Virus record (IMG/VR): IMGVR_UViG_3300008448_000017
Coordinates: 38,277 to 102,276 of that record
Reading direction: 5' to 3' (one strand)
Length of the DNA stretch: 64,000 nt
From: a virus
The notes below the pieces were generated by a model that saw only the letters and a program-made list of their open reading frames with translations, was not told the DNA's origin and made no database searches. This document shows, one piece after another, positions 13,904 through 45,544 of this stretch. How positions within the stretch are numbered: the stretch's first letter is position 1; each line of letters opens with the position of its first letter. The translations under genes and the position numbers were made by a program.

Positions 13904-13907
13904 TTTA

Positions 13908-26450: not shown

Positions 26451-26461
26451 TTATACATATT
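26451..26461 (-). promoter_or_regulatory. Promoter-like motif AATATGTATAA
   Basis: Minus-strand AATATGTATAA, 19 bases before the chosen HNH start and just downstream of the sheath terminator; identical to the element ahead of the holin-like gene. Confidence 0.5.
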
Positions 26462-26475
26462 GAGAAAAACAAAAA

Positions 26476-26495
26476 GAGTGCAATAATTTGCACTC
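26476..26495 (-). terminator. Rho-independent terminator after tail sheath
   Basis: Perfect 8-bp stem GAGTGCAA/TTGCACTC with a 4-base loop, followed on the minus strand by TTTTTGTTTTT. It lies 27 bases after the stop of the sheath gene. Confidence 0.88.
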
Positions 26496-26521
26496 CTTTC
26501 CATATTTAGTTTTCCAATTTC

Positions 26522-28222: not shown

Positions 28223-28247
28223 TTTAATATATTATATTTTTATTTTA

Positions 28248-28258
28248 TTATAAATATT
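28248..28258 (-). promoter_or_regulatory. Promoter-like motif AATATTTATAA
   Basis: Exact match on the minus strand, 25 bases upstream of sheath copy A, in the 59-base gap between the two sheath genes. It allows independent expression of the second copy. Confidence 0.55.
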
Positions 28259-28281
28259 GTTTTTTCTGTTAAAAACTATTT

Positions 28282-30300: not shown

Positions 30301-32400
30301 TTATAGGGTTAATTTACGCCAAGCACTTCCGCTTCCAAAATAAAAATCTCCACTTGAAGAGAATGCAATAGCACCATTTGTAACTGTTGGGAGAGGGGAA
30401 GTTGGTTCAATAGTTAATAAATCTCTAGTATAAAGTGATCCTGTTATACCCGCTGTTACATTTAATGAGCCAGTTATTGTAGTATTACCGTTAACATCTA
30501 GTTTTGTGTTTGGGGTTGCAGTTCCTATACCAACATTACCTGACCCTGATATTCGCATACGTTCTACGCCGGCGGTTAAAAACGCCATACTGTCATCGGT
30601 ATTATTATAATTTACCAATCCGTAATTACCTGTGGCTAATCCTTTTGAAAATAATACCCCAGCATTAGATGCAGTGGATGCGGCTAATTCTAAATAATTT
30701 TGTCCAGCTATATTCTCAGAATATACTACAGTCCCAACACCTCCACGTTTTGCAGTAGCTGAAGCAGATCCGGATTTGATATGTAATAATGCTAACGATG
30801 ATGTAATACCAATACCGACGTTACCTGCGGCATCAATTATAAATGGCGTTGCATCTGGATTTGTGGAATCTTCAACTAGGAATGATGCTGATGTTGAGGT
30901 ATTATTTACATGGAATTTAGCATTAACTTCAGTAGGAAGACTTACTCCGACCCCAACATTTCCATTAGCTTGTATTGACATACGGATTAAATTTTCCGTT
31001 GCAAATAACATTCTGCCTCCTATGGGTTGGTTAAATAATCTTAAATCTGTTGACCCAGAACTGCTGTATCCTAAATATCCAAATCGAGTTCCACCACTTT
31101 GAGGATAGAATTCTTGGAACATGTGATCTGTTCCTTCAAGTCTTAATATAGCAGGACCTCCGGAAACATGTAATTTAACGGAGGGTGTAGTTGTTCCTAT
31201 ACCAACGTTACCAGAAGCATCAATAACAAATGGTGTTGTATCTGGATTGGTTGAATCTTCTACTAAGAATGAGTTGCGTGTACCAACATTTGTTACATGA
31301 AGTGTTGCACTTCCGCTTTCAAGTGGACTAACTCTAGGATTTCCTATCAATACTTGACTGGCAGATGTAATATACATAGCCTGCGATATATTGTTAACAA
31401 CAAAAGCAATACCAGCTGCCGTTCCTGCATTTAATCCTAGATTTCCATTGGAATTTAAGTTAATAATATTTCCGGAGCCCGGAGATATGAATGTTGTAGA
31501 AAAAGTTTGCGAACCAGATGTTATGTTTAAACTTCCAGATGATATATTTAAACTACCTGTTATTCCGTATGATCCACTTAATTGATTGGTATGTTCCCAT
31601 ACTCCAAAAGAGCCACTTTGTTTATATACCCAAAGATCTCCATAACTGTAAGATCCTGATTTGTATACAGAACTTAAATCTGAAAAATCAAGTGGTTGTT
31701 GTACAGCAACATATATAACACCACTTGTTCCAGGGGATGCTTTCACACATACACCTACAGGAATAATTTCATAGGGTGCTGAAGGGGCTGTATTTTGTAA
31801 GGCACCTGATGAGCCTGTTCCTACAAAAAGTGTATCACCATCGTTAAATACATTTGTGTTTAATCCTCGAACTAGACCTTGTGTTGTTACATATCCAAAA
31901 CTACTATCTTCAATAGTGTGAGTTGCAACACCTAATATTTGGGTATCTACATTTATACTACCTGATTTGGCTATAGATTGTGCTCTTTCTATTGTAGGGG
32001 CATCACCTTGTGATCCTATAATTCTTACAACAGTACCATTTGTTACGGTTGTTCCCGTATTGTTTCTAACACGGGTCCAGTTTTCCTGTCCTACTTGTAA
32101 TGTTACATCTGCTTCAGCATTATATACCGATAATGCTCCATCTACATTATCCCAAAACACACGACCTGATTTCCAAGCAGGTACAGCTGAGCCTGTATTA
32201 AAATCAATATAATCCACATTATTTATGGATCCAGACATTTGTAGGTTATTGGAATATGAAGCTGTTAGGGCATAGCTAGAGGAAATTGCGTTTAGAGCAT
32301 ATGATGCTGTTCCATGTAAAGATCCTGTTATGCTTGGAGCATATAATGAGTTTAATTCTGCATCACTACCTGAGGTGATGACTTTTTTCCAACTTGGCAT
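30301..32400 (-). CDS. Fibre-like protein with head-binding N-terminus and TSGSL repeats
   Basis: 699-residue beta-rich virion protein. It opens MPSWKKVITSGSDAELNSLY, closely matching the opening of the 939-aa fibre upstream (MAEWKKVVVSGSDISQLN), which suggests a common attachment point on the virion. The body has repeated Ser/Gly/Thr-rich strands and three to four copies of 'FxVEDSTNPD(T/A)TPFVIDAxGNVGIG', a pattern found in tail fibres with beta-helical or triple-stranded shafts. The C-terminus is 'GSAWRKLTL'. There is no intramolecular chaperone (S74 peptidase) domain. A sulfotransferase gene lies directly upstream. Confidence 0.8.
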   Translation of the reverse strand: MPSWKKVITSGSDAELNSLYAPSITGSLHGTASYALNAISSSYALTASYSNNLQMSGSINNVDYIDFNTGSAVPAWKSGRVFWDNVDGALSVYNAEADVTLQVGQENWTRVRNNTGTTVTNGTVVRIIGSQGDAPTIERAQSIAKSGSINVDTQILGVATHTIEDSSFGYVTTQGLVRGLNTNVFNDGDTLFVGTGSSGALQNTAPSAPYEIIPVGVCVKASPGTSGVIYVAVQQPLDFSDLSSVYKSGSYSYGDLWVYKQSGSFGVWEHTNQLSGSYGITGSLNISSGSLNITSGSQTFSTTFISPGSGNIINLNSNGNLGLNAGTAAGIAFVVNNISQAMYITSASQVLIGNPRVSPLESGSATLHVTNVGTRNSFLVEDSTNPDTTPFVIDASGNVGIGTTTPSVKLHVSGGPAILRLEGTDHMFQEFYPQSGGTRFGYLGYSSSGSTDLRLFNQPIGGRMLFATENLIRMSIQANGNVGVGVSLPTEVNAKFHVNNTSTSASFLVEDSTNPDATPFIIDAAGNVGIGITSSLALLHIKSGSASATAKRGGVGTVVYSENIAGQNYLELAASTASNAGVLFSKGLATGNYGLVNYNNTDDSMAFLTAGVERMRISGSGNVGIGTATPNTKLDVNGNTTITGSLNVTAGITGSLYTRDLLTIEPTSPLPTVTNGAIAFSSSGDFYFGSGSAWRKLTL

Positions 32401-32484
32401 ATTATTTTAGTTTTTTTATTGTGGTTAGATACATACACTCATGCCGTGTATATGCCTACTTCCTTACGGCCAACAATAGTTTTG

Positions 32485-32495
32485 TTATAAATATT
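32485..32495 (-). promoter_or_regulatory. Promoter-like motif AATATTTATAA
   Basis: Exact match on the minus strand, 84 bases upstream of the 699-aa fibre gene, overlapping the stop of the sulfotransferase gene. The leader it would produce is the longest in the window and includes a weak GCCGT/ACGGC hairpin. Confidence 0.5.
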
Positions 32496-33312
32496 ATATA
32501 TATCGGAACTCTTTAAAGAACCAATCGTATTTTGATTTGATAAAATTGCATGTTTGACTTCCTAGTACTTCTTTGTATGTATTTTGTACTGGTTCTACTT
32601 TTTGTCTGATGTTGTGGTCACCATATATTCCATACACTTCATCATCCTCTACTGTAAGTTGTTCTACATTGTCAAAGTCGTGTTGGTATGTTGAAATATT
32701 TAAATATCCATAAATTTTATCCATAGTTTGTTGTGGGTTGGATGTTAAATCTTCAAATTTTACAAACAATACCTTTTCCCCTATTCCCTCATGCAACATT
32801 TGTTGGATGCGCTCAAATGCTAATCCAACAGGAGGTGTTGAAGACCATGTTTCTACACGTTTTTGTGTAGTTGTGTTTTGCATTTTTGAATGGTTAACAA
32901 AACCAGGATCTTTGTCAGGATTCTTTCTATAGTTTTTTTCCATAGAAGCATATATAGCTCTAGGATCCCGGACCATACATACAATTTTAGGTTCTGGGTA
33001 AAATGAGTTTAAGAATCCATAATGTATTCCCCATCCTCTTGACTTATCCATTACATATAGTTTGTTTGTGATTCCGTTGAAGAATCCAGACAATGCATAT
33101 ACGCAAAACGATTGGAATCCACGACGCATCAATTCACTATCTTGTGCTTTGAATTCGGGTGATGAACTATAGTTTGCTCTAGCAGCATATAATAGCTCTA
33201 AAACACCTGAAGTTGGTGTAACATAAAAGTCTGGGTTTTGTCCTATAATGTTTTGTAATAGAGTGGATCCTGCTCTTGGGAGAGAGGATTGGAAAAATAT
33301 CTGTTTTGGCAT
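32494..33312 (-). CDS. PAPS-dependent sulfotransferase-like protein
   Basis: Probably moves sulfate from PAPS to a sugar or other hydroxyl. The 5'-phosphosulfate loop FFQSSLPRAGSTLLQNII lies at residues 6-23 and the 3'-phosphate site CMVRDPRAIYASMEKNYRK at about 112-130; both match the Sulfotransfer fold. A conserved-looking C-terminal stretch 'NIRQKVEPVQNTYKEVLG' follows. Length 272 is normal. It sits between two fibre genes, and two other sulfotransferase-type genes lie at 39.8-41.0 kb. Substrate is unknown: fibre glycan, host surface glycan, or a small molecule. Confidence 0.85.
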   Translation of the reverse strand: MPKQIFFQSSLPRAGSTLLQNIIGQNPDFYVTPTSGVLELLYAARANYSSSPEFKAQDSELMRRGFQSFCVYALSGFFNGITNKLYVMDKSRGWGIHYGFLNSFYPEPKIVCMVRDPRAIYASMEKNYRKNPDKDPGFVNHSKMQNTTTQKRVETWSSTPPVGLAFERIQQMLHEGIGEKVLFVKFEDLTSNPQQTMDKIYGYLNISTYQHDFDNVEQLTVEDDEVYGIYGDHNIRQKVEPVQNTYKEVLGSQTCNFIKSKYDWFFKEFRYI

Positions 33313-33314
33313 AA

Positions 33315-33476
33315 CTATTTTTTGGATGGTTTTGGAGGACTTTGAGAGAGTTCTTGTAGTTGTTGTTCTATTTTGATTTGCAGTTGAGCCAAAAATTGAG
33401 CATCTGCTCCCTTGATAGTAATGGAATCCAACCCTGCTCGTAAAAGTTGGAATTCGGGTAAAGAAAATTCAATCAT
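33315..33476 (-). CDS. Small hypothetical protein (53 aa)
   Basis: Short gene linking the 60-aa gene to the sulfotransferase gene. Its ATG overlaps the upstream stop (ATGA) and its stop lies 2 bases before the next start (TAGTTATG). It translates as MIEFSLPEFQLLRAGLDSIT, then IKGADAQFLAQLQIKIEQQL, then QELSQSPPKPSKK: a helical, Gln-rich peptide with a basic Pro-rich tail. No function can be given. The tight junctions on both sides are the main evidence that it is real. Confidence 0.6.
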   Translation of the reverse strand: MIEFSLPEFQLLRAGLDSITIKGADAQFLAQLQIKIEQQLQELSQSPPKPSKK

Positions 33477-33655
33477 TTGTTTAAATATTGTTGTTGTAGT
33501 TTATATGCTATATTGTAGAGTATCTCTACATGTTCCCCTTTAAAGGTGGATTCTTTTAGCAGCAACAATATAAATTCAATTTCGTGCTTCTCCAAGGAAA
33601 AATCCCCTTCCTTTTGAGAAGGGGATTCTTGGTTGATTTTGTCTAATATACTCAT
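33473..33655 (-). CDS. Small hypothetical protein (60 aa) containing a terminator-like hairpin
   Basis: Opens MSILDKINQESPSQKEGDFS and continues as two charged helices ('EIEFILLLLKESTFKGEHVE', 'ILYNIAYKLQQQYLNK'). Its start has the AAAGTTATG context. No family recognised. Unusually, codons for residues 10-19 form a perfect 10-bp hairpin with a T-run (33601-33627), which would stop most transcription coming from the long fibre gene upstream. The next gene overlaps its stop by ATGA. Confidence 0.65.
   Translation of the reverse strand: MSILDKINQESPSQKEGDFSLEKHEIEFILLLLKESTFKGEHVEILYNIAYKLQQQYLNK
33601..33627 (-). terminator. Intragenic rho-independent terminator
   Basis: Perfect 10-bp stem AATCCCCTTC/GAAGGGGATT with a 7-base loop, followed on the minus strand by a T5 tract. 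It lies 47 bases after the 939-aa fibre stop but inside the coding region of the 60-aa gene, so downstream genes would be read-through products or need another promoter. Confidence 0.75.
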
Positions 33656-33673
33656 AACTTTTTAAATATTCTA

Positions 33674-36493
33674 TTAAGCGTAGATATAAATATCACTTCC
33701 AGATACTCTGATGTTTCCGTTTTTCTGGTATTTTGCTATATCTGATTGACCACCGTCTACATCTACTACAGCTGCAATGTATGCTTCTGGTGCGTAGCTA
33801 GTGGAAGTAGCATTGAACGATCCTGTGAATCCCCAACGTTGTACTCCACTGTCATATCCATATAGCTCACCTATATTTTGGGTTCCTTGTTGAACTACAA
33901 TACCACCATCTCCTGTTGCATTTGAGCCAGAAGCAAACAATACGAATCTATCTGCCACTAACAGATTTTCTGCGTTTTGGAAAGATGCTGTACCTTGTAC
34001 TGTAATATCTCCTTGGAATAAAGCGTCTGTTGAAAAAGTAACTAACGTTCCATCATCCGTAATGCTAGTGTTTGCAAATGCATCTCCTGTCCACTTTGTA
34101 AGTGTGTTTGAGCTTAAAGCAGAAGCACCCGATACTTCAACTGTTACGTTTGAGGTACCATTGTATGTGAATGTTGAGATACCTGTTCCGTTTGACGCTG
34201 AACTTGCTAGGTATGAAGCAGATATTCCTGTTAATCCACTACCATCTCCTACAAACGAACCTGTAAATATAGAACCAGTTACTGGTTGGTTAAATGTGAT
34301 GCTTTGTGAGTTGAATAAAGCTAAATCGCTTCTGTTTGCATCATCTACACCGTTACCAATTACTACTAGCGAATCTAGATTGTTGTGGGTGTTGTATTTA
34401 CCCGCTGCTAATTGACCAGAACCAGATGCGATAGTGTGTAAACCTTCAGCGTGTGATACAGGACCATATGCAACTGTACTTTCACCTTCAGCGTGAGAAT
34501 AATCACCTAATGCTATTGATGTATCACCTTCTGCGTGTGAAAATGAACCAGATGCTATTGTACCAGAACCTTCAGCATGTGAATAATTACCGGATGCTGT
34601 TGTTCCTTGTCCTTCAGCATGTGAATAATTACCGGATGCTGTTGTTCCTTGTCCTTCAGCGTGTGAACTATAACCAGATGCTGTTGTACTAAGACCTTCT
34701 GCATGGGAATAATTGCCGGATGCTGTTGTTCCTTGTCCTTCAGCGTGTGAGTATGAACCAGATGCTGTTGTACTACTACCTTCTGCATGGGAATAATTGC
34801 CTGATGCTGTTGTGGTATTACCTTCAGCGTGTGAATAATTACCGGATGCTGTTGTGGTATTACCTTCAGCGTGTGAATAATCACCGGATGCTGTTGTAGT
34901 ACTACCTTCTGCGTGTGAACCAATTGCAGATGCTACCGTTTGGTAACCTTCAGCATGAGAGTATGAACCAGATGCTATAGTTAAATAACCTTCTGCGTGT
35001 GAATATAAACCAGATGCCGTTGCGTCTCTACCTTCTGCGTGTGACCATGAACCAGATGCTATAGTTCCGTTACCTTCTGCGTGGGATGCATATCCGGATG
35101 CTGTTGTACCGTTACCTTCTGCGTGTGATGTATACCCAGATGCTGTTGTACCACCACCTTCAGCATGAGAATAATTTCCAGATGCAGTTGTAGTATCACC
35201 TTCTGCGTGTGAATAATTTCCAGATGCTACTGTATTAACGCCTTCTGCATGACTCCACGCTCCACTTGCAGTTACATTTAAACCATTTTCAAATCCACCA
35301 TTTGCTCTAACATTCATTAAAGCGATAGATTCGGAAACTAGTGTAAATGAGTTTGAACCTACATCAACTGAACCTGTAACAGATCCTGTTGCAATTTGGT
35401 TAGATTCAAATGATTGTGTTGGTAAATTAGTTAACCCACTACCATCACCTTGGAATGAACCGGAGAATGAACCGGAGAATAAACCATTTTCCCAATCTAC
35501 TATTATATCTCCATTAGAATTATTTAATTGTCTATTATCAACCCAAACAGCTCTACTACCGTTTAAATCAAATAATTCAAAACTAGATCCTGATTGGGCA
35601 AATACTATTTGAGAATTGTTATTATCTATACTAACTTGCCACTGCTCAGTGATAAGATTAATATTGGAACCAGTTACATCCAATGATCCCGTTACTGAGA
35701 TTCCATTATCAGCTCTTAACTCCATTGAATTATTTGTACTGTAATTGTCAACTTTTACATAAGTTGTATCATCACCTAAAAATAACCAACCGCCGCTTGC
35801 TGTAATGTGTGTATCTTGAGCAGCTGTATTATAGATTTCTAAGTATCTAGCATCATTTGAATCAGGTTGTAGTTTTAAACTACCCGTACCTTTAATATTA
35901 CCAGTTACAGTTAAAGATCCGCTCAAAACAGCATCACCAGAAGAGGAGATGTTGAATAGATCAATTGAGCCACTTGAAACTGTAAATATATCGCCACTTA
36001 AATCATCTACTATGCTAAATAGAGCACCACTAGAGCCACTTACTTCAAATACTGTTGAACCTGAGTTGTACAAAGTAGTTAATCCAATTACCTCTAAGCT
36101 ACCTGATATAATAGCAGACCCTGTGTATGGGAATGGAGATACGGAAGGTGCATATGAAGCAGATGTTGCTGTGTCCGCATATGAACTAGATAATGCATAT
36201 GAACTTGATTCAGCATATGAAGCACTAGTTGATGTTTCAGCATATGAAGAGCTTGTAGCTGTTTCAGAGTATGAAGCACTTGTAGCTGTTTCAGCGTATG
36301 AAGCACTCGTTGCAGTGTTAGCATATGATGCTGATGTTGCATATGATGCGGTACCTGTAAAATCTCCTATAAAGGAACCACTAAAGGAGCCTGTTAAATA
36401 AGCTCCATCTTGCCCTTGAATTAAATAATTTACGTCATTGTTGAGTTGCGATATATCACTACCCGAGACAACAACTTTTTTCCATTCTGCCAT
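33674..36493 (-). CDS. Long fibre/adhesin with YadA-type head repeats
   Basis: 939-residue virion protein. Residues 1-20 (MAEWKKVVVSGSDISQLNND) match the opening of the 699-aa fibre. Residues about 45-110 contain repeated ATSASYAET units, giving a regular beta or coiled shaft. About 415-690 hold twenty copies of a 14-residue repeat, core YSHAEGxxTTASGN, the repeat of trimeric adhesin (YadA/Hep_Hag) left-handed beta-roll heads. The C-terminal part (about 700-939) contains GSFxGDGSGLT and a globular end. It is probably a trimeric receptor-binding or adhesive fibre. It is followed by an intragenic terminator. Confidence 0.88.
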   Translation of the reverse strand: MAEWKKVVVSGSDISQLNNDVNYLIQGQDGAYLTGSFSGSFIGDFTGTASYATSASYANTATSASYAETATSASYSETATSSSYAETSTSASYAESSSYALSSSYADTATSASYAPSVSPFPYTGSAIISGSLEVIGLTTLYNSGSTVFEVSGSSGALFSIVDDLSGDIFTVSSGSIDLFNISSSGDAVLSGSLTVTGNIKGTGSLKLQPDSNDARYLEIYNTAAQDTHITASGGWLFLGDDTTYVKVDNYSTNNSMELRADNGISVTGSLDVTGSNINLITEQWQVSIDNNNSQIVFAQSGSSFELFDLNGSRAVWVDNRQLNNSNGDIIVDWENGLFSGSFSGSFQGDGSGLTNLPTQSFESNQIATGSVTGSVDVGSNSFTLVSESIALMNVRANGGFENGLNVTASGAWSHAEGVNTVASGNYSHAEGDTTTASGNYSHAEGGGTTASGYTSHAEGNGTTASGYASHAEGNGTIASGSWSHAEGRDATASGLYSHAEGYLTIASGSYSHAEGYQTVASAIGSHAEGSTTTASGDYSHAEGNTTTASGNYSHAEGNTTTASGNYSHAEGSSTTASGSYSHAEGQGTTASGNYSHAEGLSTTASGYSSHAEGQGTTASGNYSHAEGQGTTASGNYSHAEGSGTIASGSFSHAEGDTSIALGDYSHAEGESTVAYGPVSHAEGLHTIASGSGQLAAGKYNTHNNLDSLVVIGNGVDDANRSDLALFNSQSITFNQPVTGSIFTGSFVGDGSGLTGISASYLASSASNGTGISTFTYNGTSNVTVEVSGASALSSNTLTKWTGDAFANTSITDDGTLVTFSTDALFQGDITVQGTASFQNAENLLVADRFVLFASGSNATGDGGIVVQQGTQNIGELYGYDSGVQRWGFTGSFNATSTSYAPEAYIAAVVDVDGGQSDIAKYQKNGNIRVSGSDIYIYA
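34430..35270 (-). repeat. Twenty tandem 42-bp coding repeats (SHAEG)
   Basis: Array of 42-bp units encoding the 14-residue SHAEG repeat. Several neighbouring units are nearly identical at DNA level (for example the NTTTASGNYSHAEG pair), others differ in the two variable residues after SHAEG. The array is a likely site for copy-number change by recombination. Confidence 0.9.
36150..36350 (-). repeat. Short tandem coding repeats (ATSASYAE)
   Basis: About ten 24- or 21-bp imperfect units encoding (A/S)xSASYAET near the N-terminus of the 939-aa fibre. They form the thin shaft before the beta-roll head. Confidence 0.75.
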
Positions 36494-36538
36494 TTTTTCT
36501 TTTTTTCTAGTTTATTAATATTCTATATGTTATATATA

Positions 36539-36943
36539 TTAATCAAGTCCTATATATAGCGCACCTGATGTGAAGTATATTGCACCATTTGGTGCCGGGT
36601 TTGTTAATGTTAGTGATTGTGTGGATAGTGTTACCATACCACTTTGAGATACCGCTAAAACAGATGTTCCAACAGCATTTTTGATTAGAAACAAATCAGA
36701 AGCACTACCCGAAATTGTGGTTTGTCCTTGTGAATCTACTTTTAAAAATGGAATGCTACCGGACGAGATCAAGAATACATTTGTTCCAATATTAAGTTGA
36801 GTTGATCCAGTTACAGTTAAAGATCCAGATATGGTAATGTCATATGCCTCTATACCAGTAAATGCATCCACAGATTGGGATACATGCCACGGTCTAACTA
36901 CACCTAGGGATACAATGGATGATTTGTCGAGTATTTTTGCCAT
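36539..36943 (-). CDS. Small fibre-associated structural protein (134 aa)
   Basis: Beta-rich Ser/Thr/Gly protein: 'ITISGSLTVTGSTQLNIGTN' and 'PFLKVDSQGQTTISGSASDL' repeat the same GSLTVTG and VDSQG patterns found in the long fibre next to it. It opens MAKILDKSSIVSLGVVRPWH. It looks like a short relative of the fibre shaft, perhaps an attachment adaptor. A promoter-like element 9 bases upstream (AATACTTATAA) gives it its own transcript start. Function is inferred from composition and position. Confidence 0.72.
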   Translation of the reverse strand: MAKILDKSSIVSLGVVRPWHVSQSVDAFTGIEAYDITISGSLTVTGSTQLNIGTNVFLISSGSIPFLKVDSQGQTTISGSASDLFLIKNAVGTSVLAVSQSGMVTLSTQSLTLTNPAPNGAIYFTSGALYIGLD

Positions 36944-36952
36944 CTGTTTTAG

Positions 36953-36963
36953 TTATAAGTATT
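36953..36963 (-). promoter_or_regulatory. Promoter-like motif AATACTTATAA
   Basis: One mismatch from AATATTTATAA on the minus strand, 9 bases ahead of the 134-aa structural gene. Confidence 0.45.
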
Positions 36964-36974
36964 TGTAAATCGCA

Positions 36975-37901
36975 TCATATTCTAGATGATGTTGGGTTAG
37001 TATTTGGTAGATTCACAACTGTTTCTGTTCCAATAGTAACCTTTGATTTACTGTTATATTTCTTGATAGCAGTCATATCTTTTTGGATTGTATCTGGTAT
37101 GATGTATCCATTTAAAACTAAAGTAAATGAGCTGCGTACTATACGCTCATCGTCTTGTCTCAACTCTGTGATTGAGTTGAATCCATTGATGTTTGCTTTG
37201 AATTTAAAGCGTTCCGGATCTCCCCAATATGAATTGGAAGCATAGTTGATAGCTTCAACTATTTTGTTTAATTGTTCAATGTAGTATGTTTGTATAATAA
37301 AACTATATGTTAATGTAACATAGTCTGGTATAATGTTAACTACATATTGCTGTGTAGGTACTCTATTGTTAAGCAAGTCAAAGTTAGAGTATGAATTTTT
37401 TGGGTTATATGTTTTTTGCCACGAAGTATATAGATGTGGTTGGTTAGCATCTAGTTTGTTTGATATGGATTTATTTGGCTCCATACTATCGCGCTTAAAC
37501 ATCATGATCGGGGACATGATTTTCCCATTCACATCTTTGTAGTATCCGTCTTTTTGAACAGATTTCCACTTTTCGGGAGCGCCGTATATCAACGGAACAG
37601 GTATGCGTACACCATTTTGGTGAACAAACGGTTTGATAACATTTTCCACGTAATATAGAACAGATTCGTCTATATCCTGTATACCGATGGTAAATGGTTT
37701 TGTTGTATCGTCTTTGAATGATAGCTTTTCAGATCTGTTAAAGTCTACTCCATTTTGCTCATTTGGGGTAAATTGTCTAAAGTCAGAAGGCATGTTAGGA
37801 TTTCCCAGAGTCTCGCCATTCTCCGGGTTAACATACGGGTTAACTTGCTCGTTGGAGATTTCTTTTTGTGACTTTGGTGTAGGTCTTCTGTATTGTGGCA
37901 T
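36975..37901 (-). CDS. Virion structural protein (308 aa), unassigned
   Basis: A two-part protein: a polar N-terminal 75 residues, then an ordered domain with 'DIDESVLYYVENVIKPFVHQ', 'NGVRIPVPLIYGAPEKWKSV' and later 'QYVVNIIPDYVTLTYSFIIQ'. I recall this 'VPLIYGAPEKW' type among structural genes of large marine myoviruses, where it is not named. It is the first gene of the leftward fibre block after a divergent promoter region at 37902-37953. A tail terminator or fibre-anchoring part is possible. No enzyme motif is visible. Confidence 0.65.
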   Translation of the reverse strand: MPQYRRPTPKSQKEISNEQVNPYVNPENGETLGNPNMPSDFRQFTPNEQNGVDFNRSEKLSFKDDTTKPFTIGIQDIDESVLYYVENVIKPFVHQNGVRIPVPLIYGAPEKWKSVQKDGYYKDVNGKIMSPIMMFKRDSMEPNKSISNKLDANQPHLYTSWQKTYNPKNSYSNFDLLNNRVPTQQYVVNIIPDYVTLTYSFIIQTYYIEQLNKIVEAINYASNSYWGDPERFKFKANINGFNSITELRQDDERIVRSSFTLVLNGYIIPDTIQKDMTAIKKYNSKSKVTIGTETVVNLPNTNPTSSRI

Positions 37902-37907
37902 ATCAGG

Positions 37908-37918
37908 TTATAAATATA
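37908..37918 (-). promoter_or_regulatory. Promoter-like motif (leftward) at divergent junction
   Basis: Minus-strand TATATTTATAA, 6 bases before the 308-aa structural gene. A second minus-direction copy (37925-37935) overlaps the plus-direction one. Confidence 0.5.
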
Positions 37919-37929
37919 ATACGATTATA

Positions 37930-37940
37930 AATATTTATAG
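37930..37940 (+). promoter_or_regulatory. Promoter-like motif (rightward) AATATTTATAG
   Basis: The same motif in the plus direction, 13 bases before the J-domain gene, the only rightward unit in the window. The motif turns with the gene. It overlaps a minus-direction copy, together forming the near-palindrome TTATAAATATTTATAG. Confidence 0.55.
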
Positions 37941-37953
37941 TAAATGGATAAAC

Positions 37954-38529
37954 ATGAGTAAAAAACTAGAACAACTTGAGATACAAAAACTGCTCCAAGA
38001 ATATAGTTTTTTGCTACTGGATGAGGAATATAAGTTGGAAGTTGTGGACACTAACAAGATGGAGTTTTTAAATAAAGTACGCGAGATTACAGGTGCATTA
38101 CCTGAACCGCCTCCACCGCCTCCACAAGAGGAGCAAGATGCTCCACCACCCAAAAAGGAAAAGATAGATCCTTCCACAGTGGATCCTTCCACTAGAGACA
38201 AGGTTAAGAAACTCTATAGAGAGATAGCTAAAATCACACACCCCGATAAGGTAAATTCAGAGGAACTAGTTGATTTGTATATGCGCGCAACAGTAGCGGC
38301 AGAGGAATTTGACTTGTTTACTTTATTTGAGATATGCTCTAAATTGCAAATAGAGCATTCAGTGGATGGGGAAGATAAAGAAATTTTAAAGGTCAAAATA
38401 GACAAGAAGAAAGATAAACTCAAGAACATTGAAGGGTCTTTCATATGGTTGTATGCACACGCTAAAACAGAACAAGAAAAACAATTTTTAATTAACCAAT
38501 TTGCAGAAAAACATGGCAGCAAAATCTAA
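37954..38529 (+). CDS. J-domain (DnaJ-like) protein with polyproline linker
   Basis: 191-residue protein with an N-terminal helical part (1-48), a Pro-rich linker (PEPPPPPPQEEQDAPPPKK, 50-68) and a J-like domain: KVKKLYREIAKITHPDKV with HPD at 96-98, then a long helix 'DLYMRATVAAEEFDLFTLF'. The HPD tripeptide is what J proteins use to stimulate Hsp70 (DnaK). No zinc-finger or substrate-binding part of full DnaJ is present. It would recruit host DnaK to a phage task such as fibre folding. The frame opens earlier, but the start at 37954 follows the promoter motif and an upstream ATG leads to a stop. Confidence 0.82.
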   Translation: MSKKLEQLEIQKLLQEYSFLLLDEEYKLEVVDTNKMEFLNKVREITGALPEPPPPPPQEEQDAPPPKKEKIDPSTVDPSTRDKVKKLYREIAKITHPDKVNSEELVDLYMRATVAAEEFDLFTLFEICSKLQIEHSVDGEDKEILKVKIDKKKDKLKNIEGSFIWLYAHAKTEQEKQFLINQFAEKHGSKI

Positions 38530-39757
38530 AAAGAAGAAAAACAAGCAAGTAAGCAAACCCCAAACTATCAAGATTGGTATCACGTTGGGTTTAAAAGACA
38601 ACAAGGAATCTATCTGGACAAATGGTATCAAACAGAATGTGTTGATGATGATCCACATGTTGAAGAATTCCGAGAAGAACTATGAGGTGCATCTATTAAA
38701 TACCTTGAAAGCAGATTTTTCCACTAAACCATCTTACTTGAACGATATAGATGTAAGCTACTTTGAGGACAAGTATTTGGAGATGGATTTGCTTGTGGTT
38801 ATGGGTGCACAAATCCACAACCACCAAATCGATTCGTTTAAAAAATCAGGTGCTAACAAAAAGATTGTTGCCTACAAATGTGGAAACAACTATGTGATTG
38901 CTATGGAAAATATTTTGTTTGGTGAAAATCCAAACAAATCTTACCAGTTTGATGAAGTGTACGATGAGATATGGTACATACCACAACAGGATGAGGTTAA
39001 CCGCGGTTACTACCATACACTATATCGTACAAACGCTCTTATTGTTCCGTTCATTTGGCATCACAAGTTTCTTTTAGAAAGTGTAACGGATATTGAGAAA
39101 GGTTTCAAACGTGGAACATACAAAAAATCATGGCAATACGAGATTGGCAAAGACAAGAAAATATTAGGTATCATGGAGCCGAATTTGAATATCGTTAAGT
39201 TTAGTTTGATTCCAACTATGATTGCGGAGGAGTGCTATCGTGGAGATATTGGTAAAGAACATATAGATAAACTTCGTATCACAAACTCTGAGAAAGTCAA
39301 ATCACATAAAGAGTTTCTAGCCATGATTGCCACGTTTGATTTATATAAAGACAATAAGATTTCTGCTGAATCGCGTTATCAAACAGCATATATGTTAACT
39401 CAACATTTGGATGTGTTGATTTGTCATCAAATATTGAACCCACTGAATTACTTGTATTTGGATGCTGCCTTTTTAGGGTATCCAGTGTTGCATAATGCTC
39501 CGATGTGTAAGGATCTTGGCTACTATTATGAAGGTTCAGATACAATAGATGCTGCTAAACAATTGGATTATATTTTAACAGAGCACGATAAGAATATAGA
39601 TGCATATGATGAGCGTAACGATAAAGTGTTGCAACGTTACCATGCAGACAATATGGATATTGTTAAAACATACGATAAGCTAATTGAGAATTTGTTTAAT
39701 GGTGGAAACCATGGGTTGGTATACAATCCAAGTACAAACTTGTACGATAACTTGTAG
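38513..39757 (+). CDS. DUF2827 glycosyltransferase-like protein
   Basis: 414-residue protein. After a Lys-rich start (MAAKSKKKKNKQVS) it matches the DUF2827 pattern: IKIGITLGLKDNKESIWTNG, then NVLMMIHMLKNSEKNYEVHL, and near the end LNPLNYLYLDAAFLGYPVLH, NAPMCKDLGYYYEGSD. This family has the two-domain GT-B look of nucleotide-sugar glycosyltransferases, but the reaction has not been shown to my knowledge. The ATG at 38513 overlaps the end of the J-domain gene by 17 bases, so the pair is co-translated. A TTG at 38501 is a less likely start. It ends in a strong terminator. Confidence 0.8.
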   Translation: MAAKSKKKKNKQVSKPQTIKIGITLGLKDNKESIWTNGIKQNVLMMIHMLKNSEKNYEVHLLNTLKADFSTKPSYLNDIDVSYFEDKYLEMDLLVVMGAQIHNHQIDSFKKSGANKKIVAYKCGNNYVIAMENILFGENPNKSYQFDEVYDEIWYIPQQDEVNRGYYHTLYRTNALIVPFIWHHKFLLESVTDIEKGFKRGTYKKSWQYEIGKDKKILGIMEPNLNIVKFSLIPTMIAEECYRGDIGKEHIDKLRITNSEKVKSHKEFLAMIATFDLYKDNKISAESRYQTAYMLTQHLDVLICHQILNPLNYLYLDAAFLGYPVLHNAPMCKDLGYYYEGSDTIDAAKQLDYILTEHDKNIDAYDERNDKVLQRYHADNMDIVKTYDKLIENLFNGGNHGLVYNPSTNLYDNL

Positions 39758-39778
39758 AATATATGTAGGGAAAAGGAA

Positions 39779-39798
39779 GGGAACGCGTTTGCGTTCCC
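39779..39798 (+). terminator. Bidirectional rho-independent terminator
   Basis: Perfect 8-bp stem GGGAACGC/GCGTTCCC with GTTT loop, followed by T6 on the plus strand; on the minus side there is an A/T-poor but GGAAAAGG run, so it serves mainly the rightward DUF2827 gene and may also block leftward transcripts after the sulfotransferase gene. Confidence 0.85.
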
Positions 39799-39814
39799 TT
39801 TTTTCTATGTTTCA

Positions 39815-40468
39815 TTAAAACTGGTAGTCAAATAAATCCATATAAAATTTAAAGTGTTTTTCAACTAAGTTTTTTGTCTCCTCTGTATACATTTTTTTCC
39901 AATCTTTATCGGGTCTTCTTTTATTCTTTTTATATTCAGATAATTCTCTTGTTGGTTCGGGTAGATTTAACTTAATCAATAGTTTGTTTATATCACTATC
40001 CAAGTTTTCAAATCTTACAATCTCATCAACGATAAATTGATTATCAATATACATTAGATCCCAATATTTTTTAGACAAATCCTCAACCACATTAGTTGTT
40101 AATAGATAATCCTCAAAAGACATTTCAACTCTACTATATAAATCAAATGTTGGTTTGAAATAGTAATGACTAACCATCATATCAAATGGGTTTCTAACAT
40201 TTATAATTTTTGTATATGAATTGAATTTTTCCTCACCAATACTATTTTTTATTTTGTATGGTGGCATATGGTTATAGAACTCTGACATTTCAGCTAACAT
40301 CTGATTCATTCTAGTTCCGATTATACCTTCTTCGGTTTGGGTCATTTCTCTACCGTGACTTTCCTCTATGTGAGATACACAATATGGTTCTAAAAATATT
40401 TCAGTACTTGTTCCTGCTGTCTTTATACTTTTGATAAAAATGAATTTGTGTTTATGAGATACTAACAT
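39815..40468 (-). CDS. Sulfotransferase-family protein (Sulfotransfer_2-like)
   Basis: 217-residue protein resembling carbohydrate sulfotransferases. The opening HKHKFIFIKSIKTAGTSTEI holds the phosphosulfate loop (residues about 5-19), and IINVRNPFDMMVSHYYFKP (about 88-106) is the 3'-phosphate binding part with Arg and Ser in place. The C-terminal half is helical and charged. It differs in subtype from the sulfotransferase at 32.5 kb, so these are separate acquisitions, not a local duplication. It is followed by another sulfotransferase-type gene on the same strand, 5 bases away. Confidence 0.82.
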   Translation of the reverse strand: MLVSHKHKFIFIKSIKTAGTSTEIFLEPYCVSHIEESHGREMTQTEEGIIGTRMNQMLAEMSEFYNHMPPYKIKNSIGEEKFNSYTKIINVRNPFDMMVSHYYFKPTFDLYSRVEMSFEDYLLTTNVVEDLSKKYWDLMYIDNQFIVDEIVRFENLDSDINKLLIKLNLPEPTRELSEYKKNKRRPDKDWKKMYTEETKNLVEKHFKFYMDLFDYQF

Positions 40469-40473
40469 TGTTT

Positions 40474-41040
40474 TTAATTTTCGGTTTTATTATGGTGTCC
40501 AAATTGAGTGGATTTTATTTCAATATATTCAGAGAAAAACTCTATTAATTTATGTGATTCACTTTCAATATCAAACACTAGTAAATCTTTTGGTCTGTCT
40601 TTAAAGTATTCTTGAACTGAAGTTATATGGTCGTTCCATTGTTTTTTCCAATGTTCAATAACACCATTTTCATCCAACCCTGTTATTCTTTGAAAAACTT
40701 TAAGATAGTTTTGATGTTTGATTCTTGATTGTATCCATTTATCTACTGGTCTTAGGTTTAAGATAAATTTTGAGTTTGGGTATTGTTTATCCAATTCTTT
40801 AAAGTGGGTTAGATATATGAATGTGTTACTTTGTACTTCTTCCATATCTGTAAAACAATCATAATCCTCGTATCCTCTTAAAAGTGGTTGATTTGTTTCG
40901 TGGTTTCTTTTAATGGTTGTTGCTAACATACTCATACCCCAATGAATTGACTGTAAGCCATTTTCTTCAAAGAAGTGATGTATGGATAAGGTTCCACATT
41001 TGTTAAACCCTATTTGAAATATTTTATTTATTTTCTCCAT
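40474..41040 (-). CDS. Sulfotransferase-like protein, third subtype
   Basis: 188-residue protein with a P-loop-like opening IFQIGFNKCGTLSIHHFFEE (residues about 7-26), typical of the Sulfotransfer_4-type group, then FLNLRPVDKWIQSRIKHQNY-like 'FILNLRPVDKWIQSRI' for the 3'-phosphate. The middle has 'CFTDMEEVQSNTFIYLTHFK'. Short for the family but both nucleotide-binding parts are there. Its start overlaps the end of the GT25 gene by 17 bases, so sugar transfer and sulfation may be co-expressed. Exact acceptor unknown. Confidence 0.75.
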   Translation of the reverse strand: MEKINKIFQIGFNKCGTLSIHHFFEENGLQSIHWGMSMLATTIKRNHETNQPLLRGYEDYDCFTDMEEVQSNTFIYLTHFKELDKQYPNSKFILNLRPVDKWIQSRIKHQNYLKVFQRITGLDENGVIEHWKKQWNDHITSVQEYFKDRPKDLLVFDIESESHKLIEFFSEYIEIKSTQFGHHNKTEN

Positions 41041-41638
41041 TTTTTAAAATGTCTCTTGCTTTTGGTATTTGTGTTTTAAAATCCCAGTTATTTTGACGAA
41101 ATATTATTTTTTTACTAAATATTCCAATGATATCATCATTTGCTATCAACTCCGCAATTCTATAATCAACGTGTGTTATTGGTTCACCTAATTGATCTAA
41201 TATTTTATTAACACTTAATGGGTTTATAATATATCCGTGCATTCCAATAAATCTATTGAGTTTAACAAACGTATCACAAATCTCTTTTTTACTAAAGTCT
41301 TCGTGGTGTGGAAAATACCCAATAACCATTATATCCCATTGATGTTCTGTTTTTAATAGTTCATCAATATGATTTAGATAATTGTTATCTCTTGGAGTTG
41401 AATCATCTTCTAAAATTAGTAATGGTACACCTTTACAAGAACCAATTATTTTTCTATGTGATTCAAATGTTGCGACTGCCTCTCTTGATAATAATTCAGG
41501 TTTATTTTCAAATAACTTTTCATCAATATCCTTTGGGGACAATGCTTCAAAAAAGGAGAATGAAGCCCCAGATAATTGGGACTTCATATACTCTCTTCTT
41601 TTTGTTTCGGTTTTAAGATTTAAAACTTTGATTTCCAT
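41024..41638 (-). CDS. Glycosyltransferase family 25-like protein
   Basis: 204-residue protein of the LPS-type GT25 kind, which adds galactose or glucose to glycans or proteins. The start at 41638 (MEIKVLNLKTETKRREYMKS) is chosen over an upstream ATG that overlaps the preceding gene's end. Family pattern: FSFFEALSPKDIDEKL, then ESHRKIIGSCKGVPLLILED, with LILEDD as the metal-binding acidic motif, and a later 'MHGYIINPLSVNKIL' that matches the usual 'a.aYlis..gA' segment. It lies upstream of two sulfotransferase-type genes and downstream of an LRR structural gene. Confidence 0.83.
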   Translation of the reverse strand: MEIKVLNLKTETKRREYMKSQLSGASFSFFEALSPKDIDEKLFENKPELLSREAVATFESHRKIIGSCKGVPLLILEDDSTPRDNNYLNHIDELLKTEHQWDIMVIGYFPHHEDFSKKEICDTFVKLNRFIGMHGYIINPLSVNKILDQLGEPITHVDYRIAELIANDDIIGIFSKKIIFRQNNWDFKTQIPKARDILKNGENK

Positions 41639-41645
41639 TGTTTGA

Positions 41646-42314
41646 TTAACCGATTGTAGTTGCACCTTTGATTCGGAGTTTTCCTGTTATGTTGATTCCT
41701 CCGTTACCTCCAGTTAAATCTAAACCAATTAAATTCCATCCTTTACCTACCAACGCATCGTAATCTGCTGTTCCAGCCGATGTTCTACCATTGATTGTAA
41801 AGAATTGACCATTTTCAACACCATTGGCATTAAGTTGATCCAATATTGAATTGTTGGATACCGCAGTCATTGGGTTAGTTAATGTTCCATATGCATCGGC
41901 CAAATATAAATTAGTTAAGGATACCATAGGAGAAACATCTAATGATGTTAAGAGGTTACCAAATAAAACCAAATAATTTAAACCTGATAGACCTGTACCA
42001 TTAAATGAGGTTAATTGGTTATTACCTAAATCCAAATAATTTAAACCTGATAGACCTGTACCATTAAATGAGGTTAATTGGTTATCATATAAATACAAAT
42101 AAGTTATATTCCCACTAACTGTTCCATCAGATAAACATGGAATGATTGTGAATTCACCATTTGCATTTGCTACAGTAATAGTTTGATTACCACTATATTG
42201 GTTAAATACACTTGAATCAGATCCATCGTGATTATATTTCCAATATCCTGTTGATGTTTGAACATAAATGGTAATGTCTTGACCAACTGCTTTGGATGTT
42301 ATGAATGTTGCCAT
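41646..42314 (-). CDS. Leucine-rich-repeat virion-type protein
   Basis: 222-residue protein with three parts: an N-terminal beta domain (1-65, 'DITIYVQTSTGYWKYNHDGS'), three leucine-rich repeats of 21 residues (about 70-135; YLYLYDNQLTSFNGTGLSGLN and two further copies), and a C-terminal domain ending 'GGINITGKLRIKGATTIG'. The ending resembles structural genes nearby. LRR units bind proteins or glycans in bacteria and phages, so this may be a receptor-binding accessory. Two repeats are identical at DNA level over 54 bases, so the array grew recently. It is not recognised as a named family. Confidence 0.78.
   Translation of the reverse strand: MATFITSKAVGQDITIYVQTSTGYWKYNHDGSDSSVFNQYSGNQTITVANANGEFTIIPCLSDGTVSGNITYLYLYDNQLTSFNGTGLSGLNYLDLGNNQLTSFNGTGLSGLNYLVLFGNLLTSLDVSPMVSLTNLYLADAYGTLTNPMTAVSNNSILDQLNANGVENGQFFTINGRTSAGTADYDALVGKGWNLIGLDLTGGNGGINITGKLRIKGATTIG
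41969..42085 (-). repeat. Recent LRR duplication, two identical 54-bp copies
   Basis: Copies at 41969-42022 and 42032-42085, period 63 bases (one 21-residue LRR unit), identical by eye. The 9 bases between them code for the variable residues of the repeat. Confidence 0.85.
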
Positions 42315-42451: not shown

Positions 42452-45400
42452 TTAATATACTCCGTAGATCACTACTTTATCACCTGTTTCAGGTGCTGAA
42501 GTAAAATTAAATGTACCACCCCCACTATAGGTGTAATCTACACCAGCCTCTTGTAATAGACCGTTTAGGTATACTGTATCTGAGCCAGCTCTAATACCAG
42601 TTTCCAATTGAAACTCAACGTTTGTTCCATTGATAGCCCCAGTGTAAGATGCTCTCTTGAAGTAAATTGCTTCAACATCATCCACCAATGCTGACAATTC
42701 AGTTGAAATTTCAGCAAATGAATCAATTGATGTAAGATCTGTGTTAGCGATTAGGTAAGATACTTCAGTAGACAATGCAACTTCCAATGAATCCTCAGCT
42801 GCTTCAGCACGAGATACTTCAGAAGAAATAGCCGCCATCACGTCAACACCACCAACAGTTAATGTATCACTAACTTCAACATTACTGTTGAATGTGTACA
42901 TTCCAGATGCAGGAGCAGCAATAGCAGCTTTCAAACGGATTGTGTTAGTTGCAGTGTCAAGACTGATTGTAGCGTTATCAACATCAGCTAAACTATCAAT
43001 GTCAGAAGACAATTGAGCTTCCAATGAAGTGTCAACAGATGTAAGTGAAACAACTTGTGAAGATATTTCAGTTGACAATGATTCATCACCAGCGATACGT
43101 GATGATTCTTCAGCAGATACAGCAGCAGCTCTATCAACGATTTCAGTTGAAAGGTTTGCAGCGATTGAACCTTCAGCAGCAATAGCTCTTGATTCTTCAG
43201 CGTCAACGTCAGCGATACGAGCAGATGTTTCAGCAGACAAGTCAGATGCCAATGAACCATCAGCAGCAACACGTAAAGATGCTTCTGTAGATACAGCAGA
43301 TTCACGGTTAGCAATCTCAGAAGACAAATCAGAAGTCAATACTGCTTCAGCAGACATTGCTCTTGTTTCCTCAGCGTTAACATCAGAGATACGAGCTTCA
43401 ATTTCACTTGACAAGTCAAGAGCAACAGATGCATCACCTGAGATACGTGCAACCTCTTCAGTAGAGATAGCAGCTTCACGGTCAGCGATTTCTGAAGATA
43501 GGTCTCCAGCAATTGAATTATCAGCGGCCAAACGGATAGATGCCTCATTGTCAACAGCTGCAGTAGCTGCAGTAGCCAATGAAGTGATAGCTCCGTTCAA
43601 GTCGCCATCTGCGCTTTGGAATGCTCCAACAATCTCAGTCAATGAATCAATTGCAGCAGGGTCTGTGTTAGAGATTACAAAATCAACTTTTGTATTCAAT
43701 GACAATTCAGCACTTGTAGCACGAGATGCTTCAGCAGACAAATTAGAAGCCAATGAACCTTCAGCAGCGATAGCTCTTGATTCTTCAGCGTCAACATCAG
43801 CGATACGAAGCGATGCTTCAGCGTCGATATTGTTTTGAAGTGAAATTTCACCAACTACTCTTGTAGATGCTTCAGCAGAAATAGCTGAATCTACAGATGC
43901 GTTAGCGTTTGATAGGTCAGTACCAATTTTAGTTTCCAATGAACCTTCAGCAGCTGTAGCACGAGATGCTTCAGCAGACAAGTCAGATGCAAGAGATGCA
44001 TCACCAGATACTCTTGAAGATGCTTCAGCAGATACTGCAGCAGCTCTATCAACTAGTTCAGAAGAAAGGTTAGATGCGATAGAAGCGTCACCAGCAACAC
44101 GAGCAGAAGCTTCAGCAGATACTGCAGCAGCACGATCAACGATTTCTGTTGAAAGGTTAGATGCGATAGAAGCATCAGCAGCTAAACGGATAGAAGCCTC
44201 AGCTGAATCAGCAGCAGCCATTGCTGTAGCTAATGAACCTTCAGCAGCGATTGCACGAGATTCTTCAGCGTCAACGTCTGCAATACGAGCAGAAGTTTCT
44301 GAAGATAGGTCAGCAGTGATTGATTGGTCAGCAGCCAAACGAGTTGAAGCTTCAGCAGATACTGCAGCAGCACGATCAACTAGTTCAGTTGAAAGACCAG
44401 CAGCAATTGAAGCATCACCTGATACTCTTGCAGATTCCTCAGCAGATACTGCAGATGTTCTATCAACGATTTCAGTTGACAAGTTAGCAGCGATTGAAGC
44501 GTCAGCAGCAACACGACCTTCTTGTTCTTGAACAAGTTTGTAGTCAGCTACAGCAACTACAGATGCATCAGCAATTGACATTTGTTCCATCAATGAGCTG
44601 TCCATTTCATCAACATACATTTCCAATGAATACTCAGCGCTTGCAGCACGAGCAATTTCAGAAGACAAATCAGAAGCCAATGAACCTTCAGCAGCTGTAG
44701 CACGAGATGCTTCAGCAGATACTGCAGCTTCACGGTTTGCTGTTTCTGTAGACAAATCAGCGTTAACTGAAGCGTCACCTGAAATACGAGCAGCTTCTTC
44801 CAAAGATACTGCAGATTCGCGGTCAGCGATTTCTGAAGAAAGATCACCTGCGATTGACTGGTCAGCAGCCAAACGAATAGATGCTTCATTATCAACAGCT
44901 GTTGTTGCTGCAGTAGCCAAAGATGTGATAGCACCATTTAGGTCACCATCAGCTGATTGGAACGCTCCAACGATTTCAGTCAATGAATCAATTGCTGCAG
45001 GATCAACGTTAGAGATAACGTAATCTACTTTAGTGTTTAATGAAGTTTCTGCACTTGTTGCACGAGATACTTCTGCAGACAATGCTGTGTTGATAGAAGC
45101 ATCAGCTACACTCATTGCAGCCGCTACTGACTCATCACCAACAATACGTAAAGATGCTTCAGCATCAATGTTATTTTGTAATGAAGTTTCAGCAACAATT
45201 GCACGTGATTCCTCAGCGTCAACGTCTGCGATACGGTTAGCTACTTCTGTAGAAAGGTTAGCTGCAAGTGATTCGTCACCAGCAACACGAGAAGATGCTT
45301 CAGCAGATACTGCTGCTGCGCGGCTAGATGCTTCAGAAGAAAGATCTGCAGCTACAGATGCATCACCAGCGATACGGTTAGATACCTCAGCGGACATATC

Positions 45401-45544
45401 AACGCTAGCTTGAGTATCAATGGATGTTACAACGGATTGTAAACCATCGATATCAGCAACGACGATACCAACTGGGGCAGTAATTTGTGCGTTGTCCAAT
45501 ATTAAATCGGACTGTCTATTTAAGACAATTTTAGTTTCTGCCAT
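42452..45544 (-). CDS. Very long repetitive fibre protein (1030 aa)
   Basis: Fibre-like protein built of Ala/Ser/Glu/Asp-rich repeats of about 11 and 22 residues, such as AAVSAEASSRVAGDESLAAN and RIADVDAEESRAIAAEGSLA, spanning about residues 45-880. The regular pattern fits a long trimeric coiled-coil shaft. A longer block with AAIDSLTEIVGAFQSADGDL occurs twice (about 200-235 and 615-650), so the gene has large internal duplications. The C-terminal 70 residues (FKRASYTGAINGTNVEFQLE, then YLNGLLQEAGVDYTYSGG) are a separate module shared with the 235-aa protein at 45.9 kb. Followed by a strong terminator. Confidence 0.82.
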   Translation of the reverse strand: MAETKIVLNRQSDLILDNAQITAPVGIVVADIDGLQSVVTSIDTQASVDMSAEVSNRIAGDASVAADLSSEASSRAAAVSAEASSRVAGDESLAANLSTEVANRIADVDAEESRAIVAETSLQNNIDAEASLRIVGDESVAAAMSVADASINTALSAEVSRATSAETSLNTKVDYVISNVDPAAIDSLTEIVGAFQSADGDLNGAITSLATAATTAVDNEASIRLAADQSIAGDLSSEIADRESAVSLEEAARISGDASVNADLSTETANREAAVSAEASRATAAEGSLASDLSSEIARAASAEYSLEMYVDEMDSSLMEQMSIADASVVAVADYKLVQEQEGRVAADASIAANLSTEIVDRTSAVSAEESARVSGDASIAAGLSTELVDRAAAVSAEASTRLAADQSITADLSSETSARIADVDAEESRAIAAEGSLATAMAAADSAEASIRLAADASIASNLSTEIVDRAAAVSAEASARVAGDASIASNLSSELVDRAAAVSAEASSRVSGDASLASDLSAEASRATAAEGSLETKIGTDLSNANASVDSAISAEASTRVVGEISLQNNIDAEASLRIADVDAEESRAIAAEGSLASNLSAEASRATSAELSLNTKVDFVISNTDPAAIDSLTEIVGAFQSADGDLNGAITSLATAATAAVDNEASIRLAADNSIAGDLSSEIADREAAISTEEVARISGDASVALDLSSEIEARISDVNAEETRAMSAEAVLTSDLSSEIANRESAVSTEASLRVAADGSLASDLSAETSARIADVDAEESRAIAAEGSIAANLSTEIVDRAAAVSAEESSRIAGDESLSTEISSQVVSLTSVDTSLEAQLSSDIDSLADVDNATISLDTATNTIRLKAAIAAPASGMYTFNSNVEVSDTLTVGGVDVMAAISSEVSRAEAAEDSLEVALSTEVSYLIANTDLTSIDSFAEISTELSALVDDVEAIYFKRASYTGAINGTNVEFQLETGIRAGSDTVYLNGLLQEAGVDYTYSGGGTFNFTSAPETGDKVVIYGVY
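42650..45410 (-). repeat. Coding repeats of the 1030-aa fibre shaft
   Basis: Imperfect 33-bp and 66-bp units encoding (A/E)-rich coiled-coil repeats, with two about 350-bp blocks (near 43.5-43.75 and 44.8-45.05 kb) nearly alike at protein level, including the DGDLNGAITSLATAAT segment. This indicates segmental duplication in the gene. Confidence 0.8.

Follow-up and report, generated by a model that had tools for sequence, protein, structure and literature searches.

Sulfotransferase and glycosyltransferase genes among the tail fibre genes of a T4-like phage: a possible system for decorating fibres with sulfated glycans

Three sulfotransferase genes lie among the tail fibre genes of the uncultured phage represented by IMG/VR record IMGVR_UViG_3300008448_000017. 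We analysed a window of 64 kb (positions 38,277 to 102,276) out of this 102,276-base viral record, which is itself probably a fragment; coordinates below are those of the window unless a locus in a relative or elsewhere in the record (labelled L) is named. The window has a T4-like architecture. From the sheath genes towards the fibre gene FibC, the minus strand carries FibA, ST1, a 60 amino acid (aa) open reading frame (ORF), FibB, a short fibre gene, a structural gene, ST2, ST3, a GT25 gene and a leucine-rich repeat (LRR) gene, and amid these the plus strand carries a J-domain/DUF2827 gene pair. The original prediction had proposed, for 30301-42314, a phage-coded glycan-sulfating system whose genes are interleaved with fibre genes. 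FibC (42452..45544), just beyond that range, belongs to the block as well. Fibre and sulfotransferase genes share the minus strand; the J-domain/DUF2827 pair is on the opposite strand.

As predicted, the sulfotransferases are of three subtypes, matching three Pfam families, all above curated cut-offs. ST1 (32494..33312, minus strand, 272 aa) matches PF13469 (Sulfotransfer_3; 5e-18, 66.6 bits, cut-off 27), ST2 (39815..40468, minus, 217 aa) matches PF03567 (Sulfotransfer_2; 1.5e-5, 25.7 bits, cut-off 22) and ST3 (40474..41040, minus, 188 aa) matches PF17784 (Sulfotransfer_4; 3.6e-14, 53.6 bits, cut-off 22.8). The 5′-phosphosulfate-binding and 3′-phosphate-binding motifs for the sulfate donor 3′-phosphoadenosine 5′-phosphosulfate (PAPS) are intact and conserved in all three. 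In ST1 they read SLPRAGSTLL and RDPRAIYAS, with motif residues invariant in 31 relatives; the motif residues of ST2 (G19, R92, S100) are invariant in 11 relatives and those of ST3 across three ST3 sequences. ST3 homologues were found only in L119 and L120, at the equivalent position, plus identical contigs. Ratios of nonsynonymous to synonymous substitution rates (dN/dS) are 0.06-0.07 for ST1, 0.07-0.09 for ST2, 0.16 for ST3 and 0.20 for GT25, from which the three sulfotransferase genes are judged to be under purifying selection. We predict that ST1, ST2 and ST3 are PAPS-dependent sulfotransferases.

Four fibre-like or adhesin genes had been claimed in the block. FibA (30301..32400, minus, 699 aa, N-terminus MPSWKKVITSGSD) matches a tail fibre PHROG (1.8e-11). 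FibB (33674..36493, minus, 939 aa) is a YadA-head-type fibre (PF05658, YadA_head, 2.1e-18) with 20 repeats in which SHAEG recurs every 14 residues exactly, often with Tyr just before it. The short fibre-like protein (36539..36943, minus, 134 aa) matches no Pfam or PHROG family, and its homologues adjoin FibB-type fibres in L050, L054 and L093. The product of 36975..37901 (minus, 308 aa) is not a fibre but a conserved structural protein, encoded beside the neck/sheath block and found in 42 viral-contig loci with the same flanking head/tail genes; it served as the anchor for finding relatives. The small ORF between FibB and ST1 (33473..33655, minus) has no Pfam match and is kept at the equivalent site in L049, L050, L053 and L054. 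FibC, a repetitive fibre-like protein on the minus strand (1030 aa, no Pfam match), adjoins LRR/DUF2827 genes in most DUF2827 loci.

Family matches bear out the GT25, DUF2827 and LRR genes of the original prediction. The GT25-family glycosyltransferase (41024..41665, minus, probable start 41638) matches PF01755 (Glyco_transf_25; 6.3e-12, 46.2 bits, cut-off 24), and its reading frame runs into ST3 at one end and into the LRR gene at the other, overlaps that suggest translational coupling. The LRR protein (41646..42314, minus, 222 aa; LRR_4, 2.8e-8) has homologues of 428-1472 aa in relatives (LRR_4 3e-75 in L119). The DUF2827 protein (38513..39757, plus; PF10933, 1.4e-97) is a predicted GT-B glycosyltransferase: its AlphaFold2 model (predicted local distance difference test score, pLDDT, 81) matches GT-B/GT4 enzymes such as BshA and WaaG at 1e-11 to 1e-8, with Foldseek values of 1.4e-11 to 6eji and 2e-10 to BshA. 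Searches with its sequence gave no match in the PDB and none in deposited phage records at 1e-5. For the adjoining J-domain gene (37954..38529, plus, 191 aa from the likely start, 37954 being more likely than the ORF start 37687), the HPD motif and its conservation beside DUF2827 in relatives speak for the earlier assignment, but the DnaJ match (PF00226) of 17.9 bits is under the cut-off of 27.8. The viral loci examined for DUF2827 have a J-domain gene nearby, and in most of them FibC or LRR genes adjoin. In the DUF2827 loci of many phages, some on contigs of more than 280 kb, fibre genes are close to this pair, which here (37954-39757) runs antisense within the fibre operon; the pair beside fibres is a second lead.

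The order FibC, LRR, GT25, ST3, ST2, with DUF2827 and J-domain genes nearby, recurs in L119 and L120. An adenosine 5′-phosphosulfate (APS) kinase gene and a DUF2061 gene follow directly after ST2 in L120, and a DUF2061-like ORF is found there in L119. This recurrence in two other phages and the dN/dS values together argue that the gene block is not a chance assembly.

Scanning viral contigs with ST1 yielded 69 loci, several of them copies of the studied phage. A recurrent block comprises a fibre-like gene, a gene of ~110 aa, a GT9-like enzyme of ~290 aa, ST1, a P-loop protein of ~150 aa, a nucleotidyltransferase of ~130 aa and a DUF2061 membrane protein; some loci add an HldE-like nucleotidyltransferase, a PfkB-type kinase, a HAD phosphatase-like protein, an FkbM methyltransferase, GT4, GT8 or a 2-oxoglutarate (2OG) oxygenase. 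Pfam (PF01583, 9e-12 to 8e-67) and a PDB profile match (4e-18) identify the P-loop protein as an APS kinase, and its P-loop, DGD-R and PY motifs are invariant. Adjacency was compared with random placement among the same-strand genes of the same locus, using the 34 distinct loci, found by ST1 alone, that remain after dropping near-identical ST1 genes. The APS kinase directly adjoins ST1 in 18 of the 34 (2.0 expected) and the GT9-like enzyme does so in 15 (2.2 expected). In 23 loci ST1 has a fibre-like gene no more than three genes away, against 11.9 expected, and the abundance of fibres in the local region makes this last test conservative. Fibre-like genes were chosen by composition, and of 45 that were scanned 17 match the S74 chaperone domain and 17 a tail-spike PHROG, with others matching tail-fibre or beta-roll families. 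In many loci the cassette is directly upstream of the s87 and sheath genes, as is the slot of ST1 in the window; proximity of ST1 to the sheath is not above the local null in the 34 loci.

In L053 the order is a FibB-type YadA fibre (69% identical), a 67-aa ORF, ST1 (83%), a 298-aa protein, DUF2061, the GT9-like enzyme and a FibA-type fibre of 1076 aa. Since a full cassette thus stands between the same two fibres, the window looks like the same locus lacking the 298-aa protein, DUF2061 and GT9-like genes. This 298-aa protein combines an APS kinase and a CTP_transf_like nucleotidyltransferase in one chain, a fusion also seen in L058. Fusion loci were noted at L053:10824-11720, L058:10803-11852 and L265:8824-9729; in the phages the APS kinase is joined to an NMN-adenylyltransferase-like domain, and in a Bacteroidota genome to DUF2061.

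The GT9-like enzyme (291 aa) finds no match among PDB sequences with its profile, and its model (pLDDT 92.6) is predicted to fold like GT9 heptosyltransferases, with Foldseek values of 1.2e-11 to 3tov, the best match, followed by WaaC and WaaF, and of 1e-6 to TibC, also among the best matches. Adhesin heptosyltransferases of the BAHT family are marked by a four-Cys iron finger (PMC4358343). This is absent from the phage enzyme, which has one conserved Cys only and is thus placed outside that family, as GT9-like.

The APS kinase follows the sulfotransferases across records also. In 21 records, hand-chosen and with some close relatives among them, it is present in nine of the 13 with any sulfotransferase and in none of the eight without (p 0.007 after deduplication). 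No classical ATP sulfurylase (PF01747) was found in the 13 sulfotransferase-bearing records, to which family the cassette nucleotidyltransferase scores 0.086 (12.7 bits, cut-off 24.3). A role in nicotinamide adenine dinucleotide salvage, with a NadR-like kinase and nicotinamide mononucleotide (NMN) adenylyltransferase, was rejected for the kinase, which in L058 matches APS_kinase at 8e-67 and nicotinamide riboside kinase at 0.009. A cytidine diphosphoramidate route of the Campylobacter type was set aside, the transferase being a PAPS-type sulfotransferase. One phage record, L123 (G021), has seven Sulfotransfer_2 matches, six within 15 kb, and an APS kinase.

With moderate confidence we read the region as encoding a system by which the phage decorates its own host-binding fibres with sulfated glycans, the sulfate coming from PAPS. 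The fibre operon, presumably expressed late, would carry built-in cargo for this purpose. Cytoplasmic glycosyltransferases (GT25 and DUF2827 here, GT9-like in relatives) would glycosylate repeated Ser/Thr sites of fibre proteins before assembly, and the sulfotransferases would then add sulfate from PAPS. Many relatives may make the PAPS with a phage-supplied APS kinase, nucleotidyltransferase and small membrane protein DUF2061. The studied phage has only transferases in the sequenced part and would draw PAPS from the host or from genes in the missing part. The benefit may lie in adsorption, shielding or fibre stability. The broader claim of a phage-coded glycan-sulfating system is well supported by the intact sulfotransferases, the glycosyltransferases and the dedicated APS kinase and GT9-like enzyme that relatives carry in the same cassette. 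That virion fibres are the acceptors, as originally favoured, has behind it a real fibre linkage above the local null, and remains the conditional part. Ser/Thr is enriched in the fibre repeats where ST1 is present (0.62 vs 0.45, permutation p 0.002), though close kinship among several rows makes this enrichment suggestive only. In bacteria, ST1 relatives of Verrucomicrobia adjoin YadA-head proteins with probable signal peptides, and those on Bacteroidota contigs occur with a GT9-like enzyme, FkbM, a DUF2061-APS kinase fusion and repeat-rich surface-type proteins (one such contig also carries a lipoyl-synthase-like chromosomal gene); such neighbours support surface adhesins and fibres as acceptors.

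Several results weigh against fibre decoration. Co-variation of fibre type and sulfotransferase type, which the original prediction proposed to check, is only partly seen: YadA-type fibres are also present in relatives without ST1 (L009, L012), so that decoration would be optional. Distant cyanophage relatives of ST1 (27-29% identity; S-SKS1, S-SRM01, S-SCSM1) are in no case beside annotated fibres, and at the bacterial ST1 loci fibre linkage is not above the local null. The 102 kb record of this phage, probably a fragment, contains no APS kinase. Of 80 viral APS kinases in a broader sample, only 26 adjoin a sulfotransferase of window type. The association therefore holds from ST1 towards the APS kinase and not always in the other direction, and the suggestion of a first reverse scan, that nearly all viral APS kinases adjoin ST1, was narrowed accordingly. 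DUF2061 and the J-domain gene are unaccounted for by fibre decoration. Another acceptor is also conceivable in view of a separate glycan cluster in the same record outside the window (L003:4814-14338); this cluster encodes GT2, GT4, a PglD-like acyltransferase, a short DegT-type aminotransferase and methyltransferases, and could build the sugar to be sulfated or act on another target.

The enzymes might instead modify host surface glycans, lipopolysaccharide (LPS) core or surface polysaccharide, during infection, so that progeny avoid debris and infected cells or rivals are excluded; a hotspot for cargo genes and expression late in infection would then explain their place among fibres. In bacteria the LPS core is a substrate of GT25 and GT9 families, the GT9-like fold is predicted to be closest to WaaC and WaaF after 3tov, DUF2061 is a small membrane protein, and the further phage glycan cluster with GT2, GT4, DegT and PglD-like genes would fit. 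We nevertheless hold this to be rather unlikely, given the recurrent fibre linkage in phages above the local null, the secreted YadA-head proteins that adjoin ST1 relatives in Verrucomicrobia, and the finding of a GtrA flippase in none of the 13 sulfotransferase-bearing records, which argues against serotype conversion. Direct sulfation of Tyr in the fibre repeats, with no sugar and with ST1 as a protein-tyrosine sulfotransferase, draws on the Tyr frequent just before SHAEG in FibB and on the best solved relatives of the ST1 profile, TPST1 (5.7e-10, the best PDB profile match) and TPST2, over a range of 5.7e-10 to 8e-6. The repeat Tyr, however, is as common without ST1 (0.52 vs 0.54), Ser/Thr being the residues enriched with it, and the GT9-like enzyme directly adjoins ST1 in 44 of 68 distinct loci. 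In one profile alignment the GEETR stretch of TPST, which holds its catalytic Glu, aligns with PTSG in ST1. This reading is improbable.

Mixed cargo at a recombination hotspot, with no shared function, would account for the highly variable fibre-sheath interval among relatives, the varying module contents and the J-domain/DUF2827 pair antisense to fibres; conservation of gene orders across divergent phages, the overlapping frames of LRR-GT25-ST3 and purifying selection make it quite improbable. We give still less credence to sulfur assimilation by auxiliary metabolic genes, the usual reading of viral cysC; reviews and virome studies (PMC12713726, PMC9529941) count this gene, without validation, towards assimilatory sulfate reduction. 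Many viral APS kinases are indeed away from ST1. Yet PAPS reductase was found in none of the 13 sulfotransferase-bearing records by a search positive in 14 of 14 control genomes, and its absence with that of classical ATP sulfurylase argues against phage-coded sulfur assimilation, as do the direct adjacency of APS kinase to ST1 in over half of the 34 loci and its absence from the eight compared records without a sulfotransferase. By Pfam tallies, genes around APS kinases that lack ST1 are of glycan type (2OG oxygenase, carbamoyltransferase, epimerase) or DNA-modification genes. At L352:3000-7500 and similar loci (L371-L374) in other phages, APS kinase, nucleotidyltransferase and DUF2061 without ST1 are in a replication region near a gp32-like gene.

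Known systems resemble the proposed one in part. Mycobacteriophages use glycosyltransferases of their own to modify virion proteins of capsid and tail (Freeman 2023, as cited in PMC12363180), and here too phage-coded glycosyltransferases would act on own virion proteins; in that account the sugars go to capsid and tail tube, with no mention of sulfation, whereas here there are fibre linkage, sulfotransferases and, in relatives, an APS kinase. With the TibC/AAH enzymes of the BAHT family (PMC4358343) the cassettes share a GT9-like fold, a gene adjoining a repetitive surface adhesin and, in some phages, ADP-heptose-type genes (PfkB-like kinase, HldE-like nucleotidyltransferase); they differ in lacking the iron finger and in the added sulfation, and the GT9-like gene is absent from the window. 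TPST1/2 are the closest solved sequences to ST1, but ST1 has, in one profile alignment, other residues at the GEETR position and travels with glycosyltransferases. The fusions in L053 and L058 recall bifunctional PAPS synthases (SAT/APS kinase; PAPSS1) in joining APS kinase to a nucleotidyltransferase, unlike PAPSS1 in that the second domain is short and CTP_transf_like/NMN-adenylyltransferase-like, not ATP sulfurylase. The cyanophage sulfotransferases belong to the same superfamily as ST1 but, unlike it, have no annotated fibre gene as a neighbour.

The function of phage sulfotransferases is called unclear in a published survey (PMC10580990), and our literature search on tail-fibre glycosylation with a sulfotransferase, whose coverage left out most subscription journals, found nothing on point. 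Sulfated sugars on a phage's own host-binding fibres would seem to be new for phages. A conserved gene block that joins sulfotransferase and APS kinase to fibre and glycosyltransferase offers a shared, testable role for part of the phage sulfotransferases and viral cysC. If it is so used, a phage would need sulfated sugars on its own particle for adsorption, which adds to host recognition a layer so far not considered; sulfotransferases, and perhaps a compact PAPS synthase, would then be available from phages. A tentative extension is that aquatic T4-like phages possess a mobile, self-sufficient sulfation cassette, in which a minimal nucleotidyltransferase, possibly a new ATP sulfurylase, and the APS kinase beside or fused to it form a compact PAPS synthase; this would feed sulfotransferases that give trimeric YadA-like tail fibres their sulfated O-glycans. 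Some of the viral cysC now assigned to sulfur assimilation would then serve virion decoration.

In Flavobacterium phage immuto, whose sheath protein shares ~50% identity with the one encoded here, no sulfotransferase is annotated close to the sheath gene. Two tandem, diverged tail sheath genes are at 26522-30006. Judged from translations only, genes beside core genes at 13157-13930, 25748-26503 and 49536-51044 are likely of HNH or other homing-endonuclease type, and the same record outside the window has GroEL/GroES genes (L004:1879-3823) and a FolE/QueE/QueD/QueC-like set of a preQ0-type pathway (L004:10819-15486).

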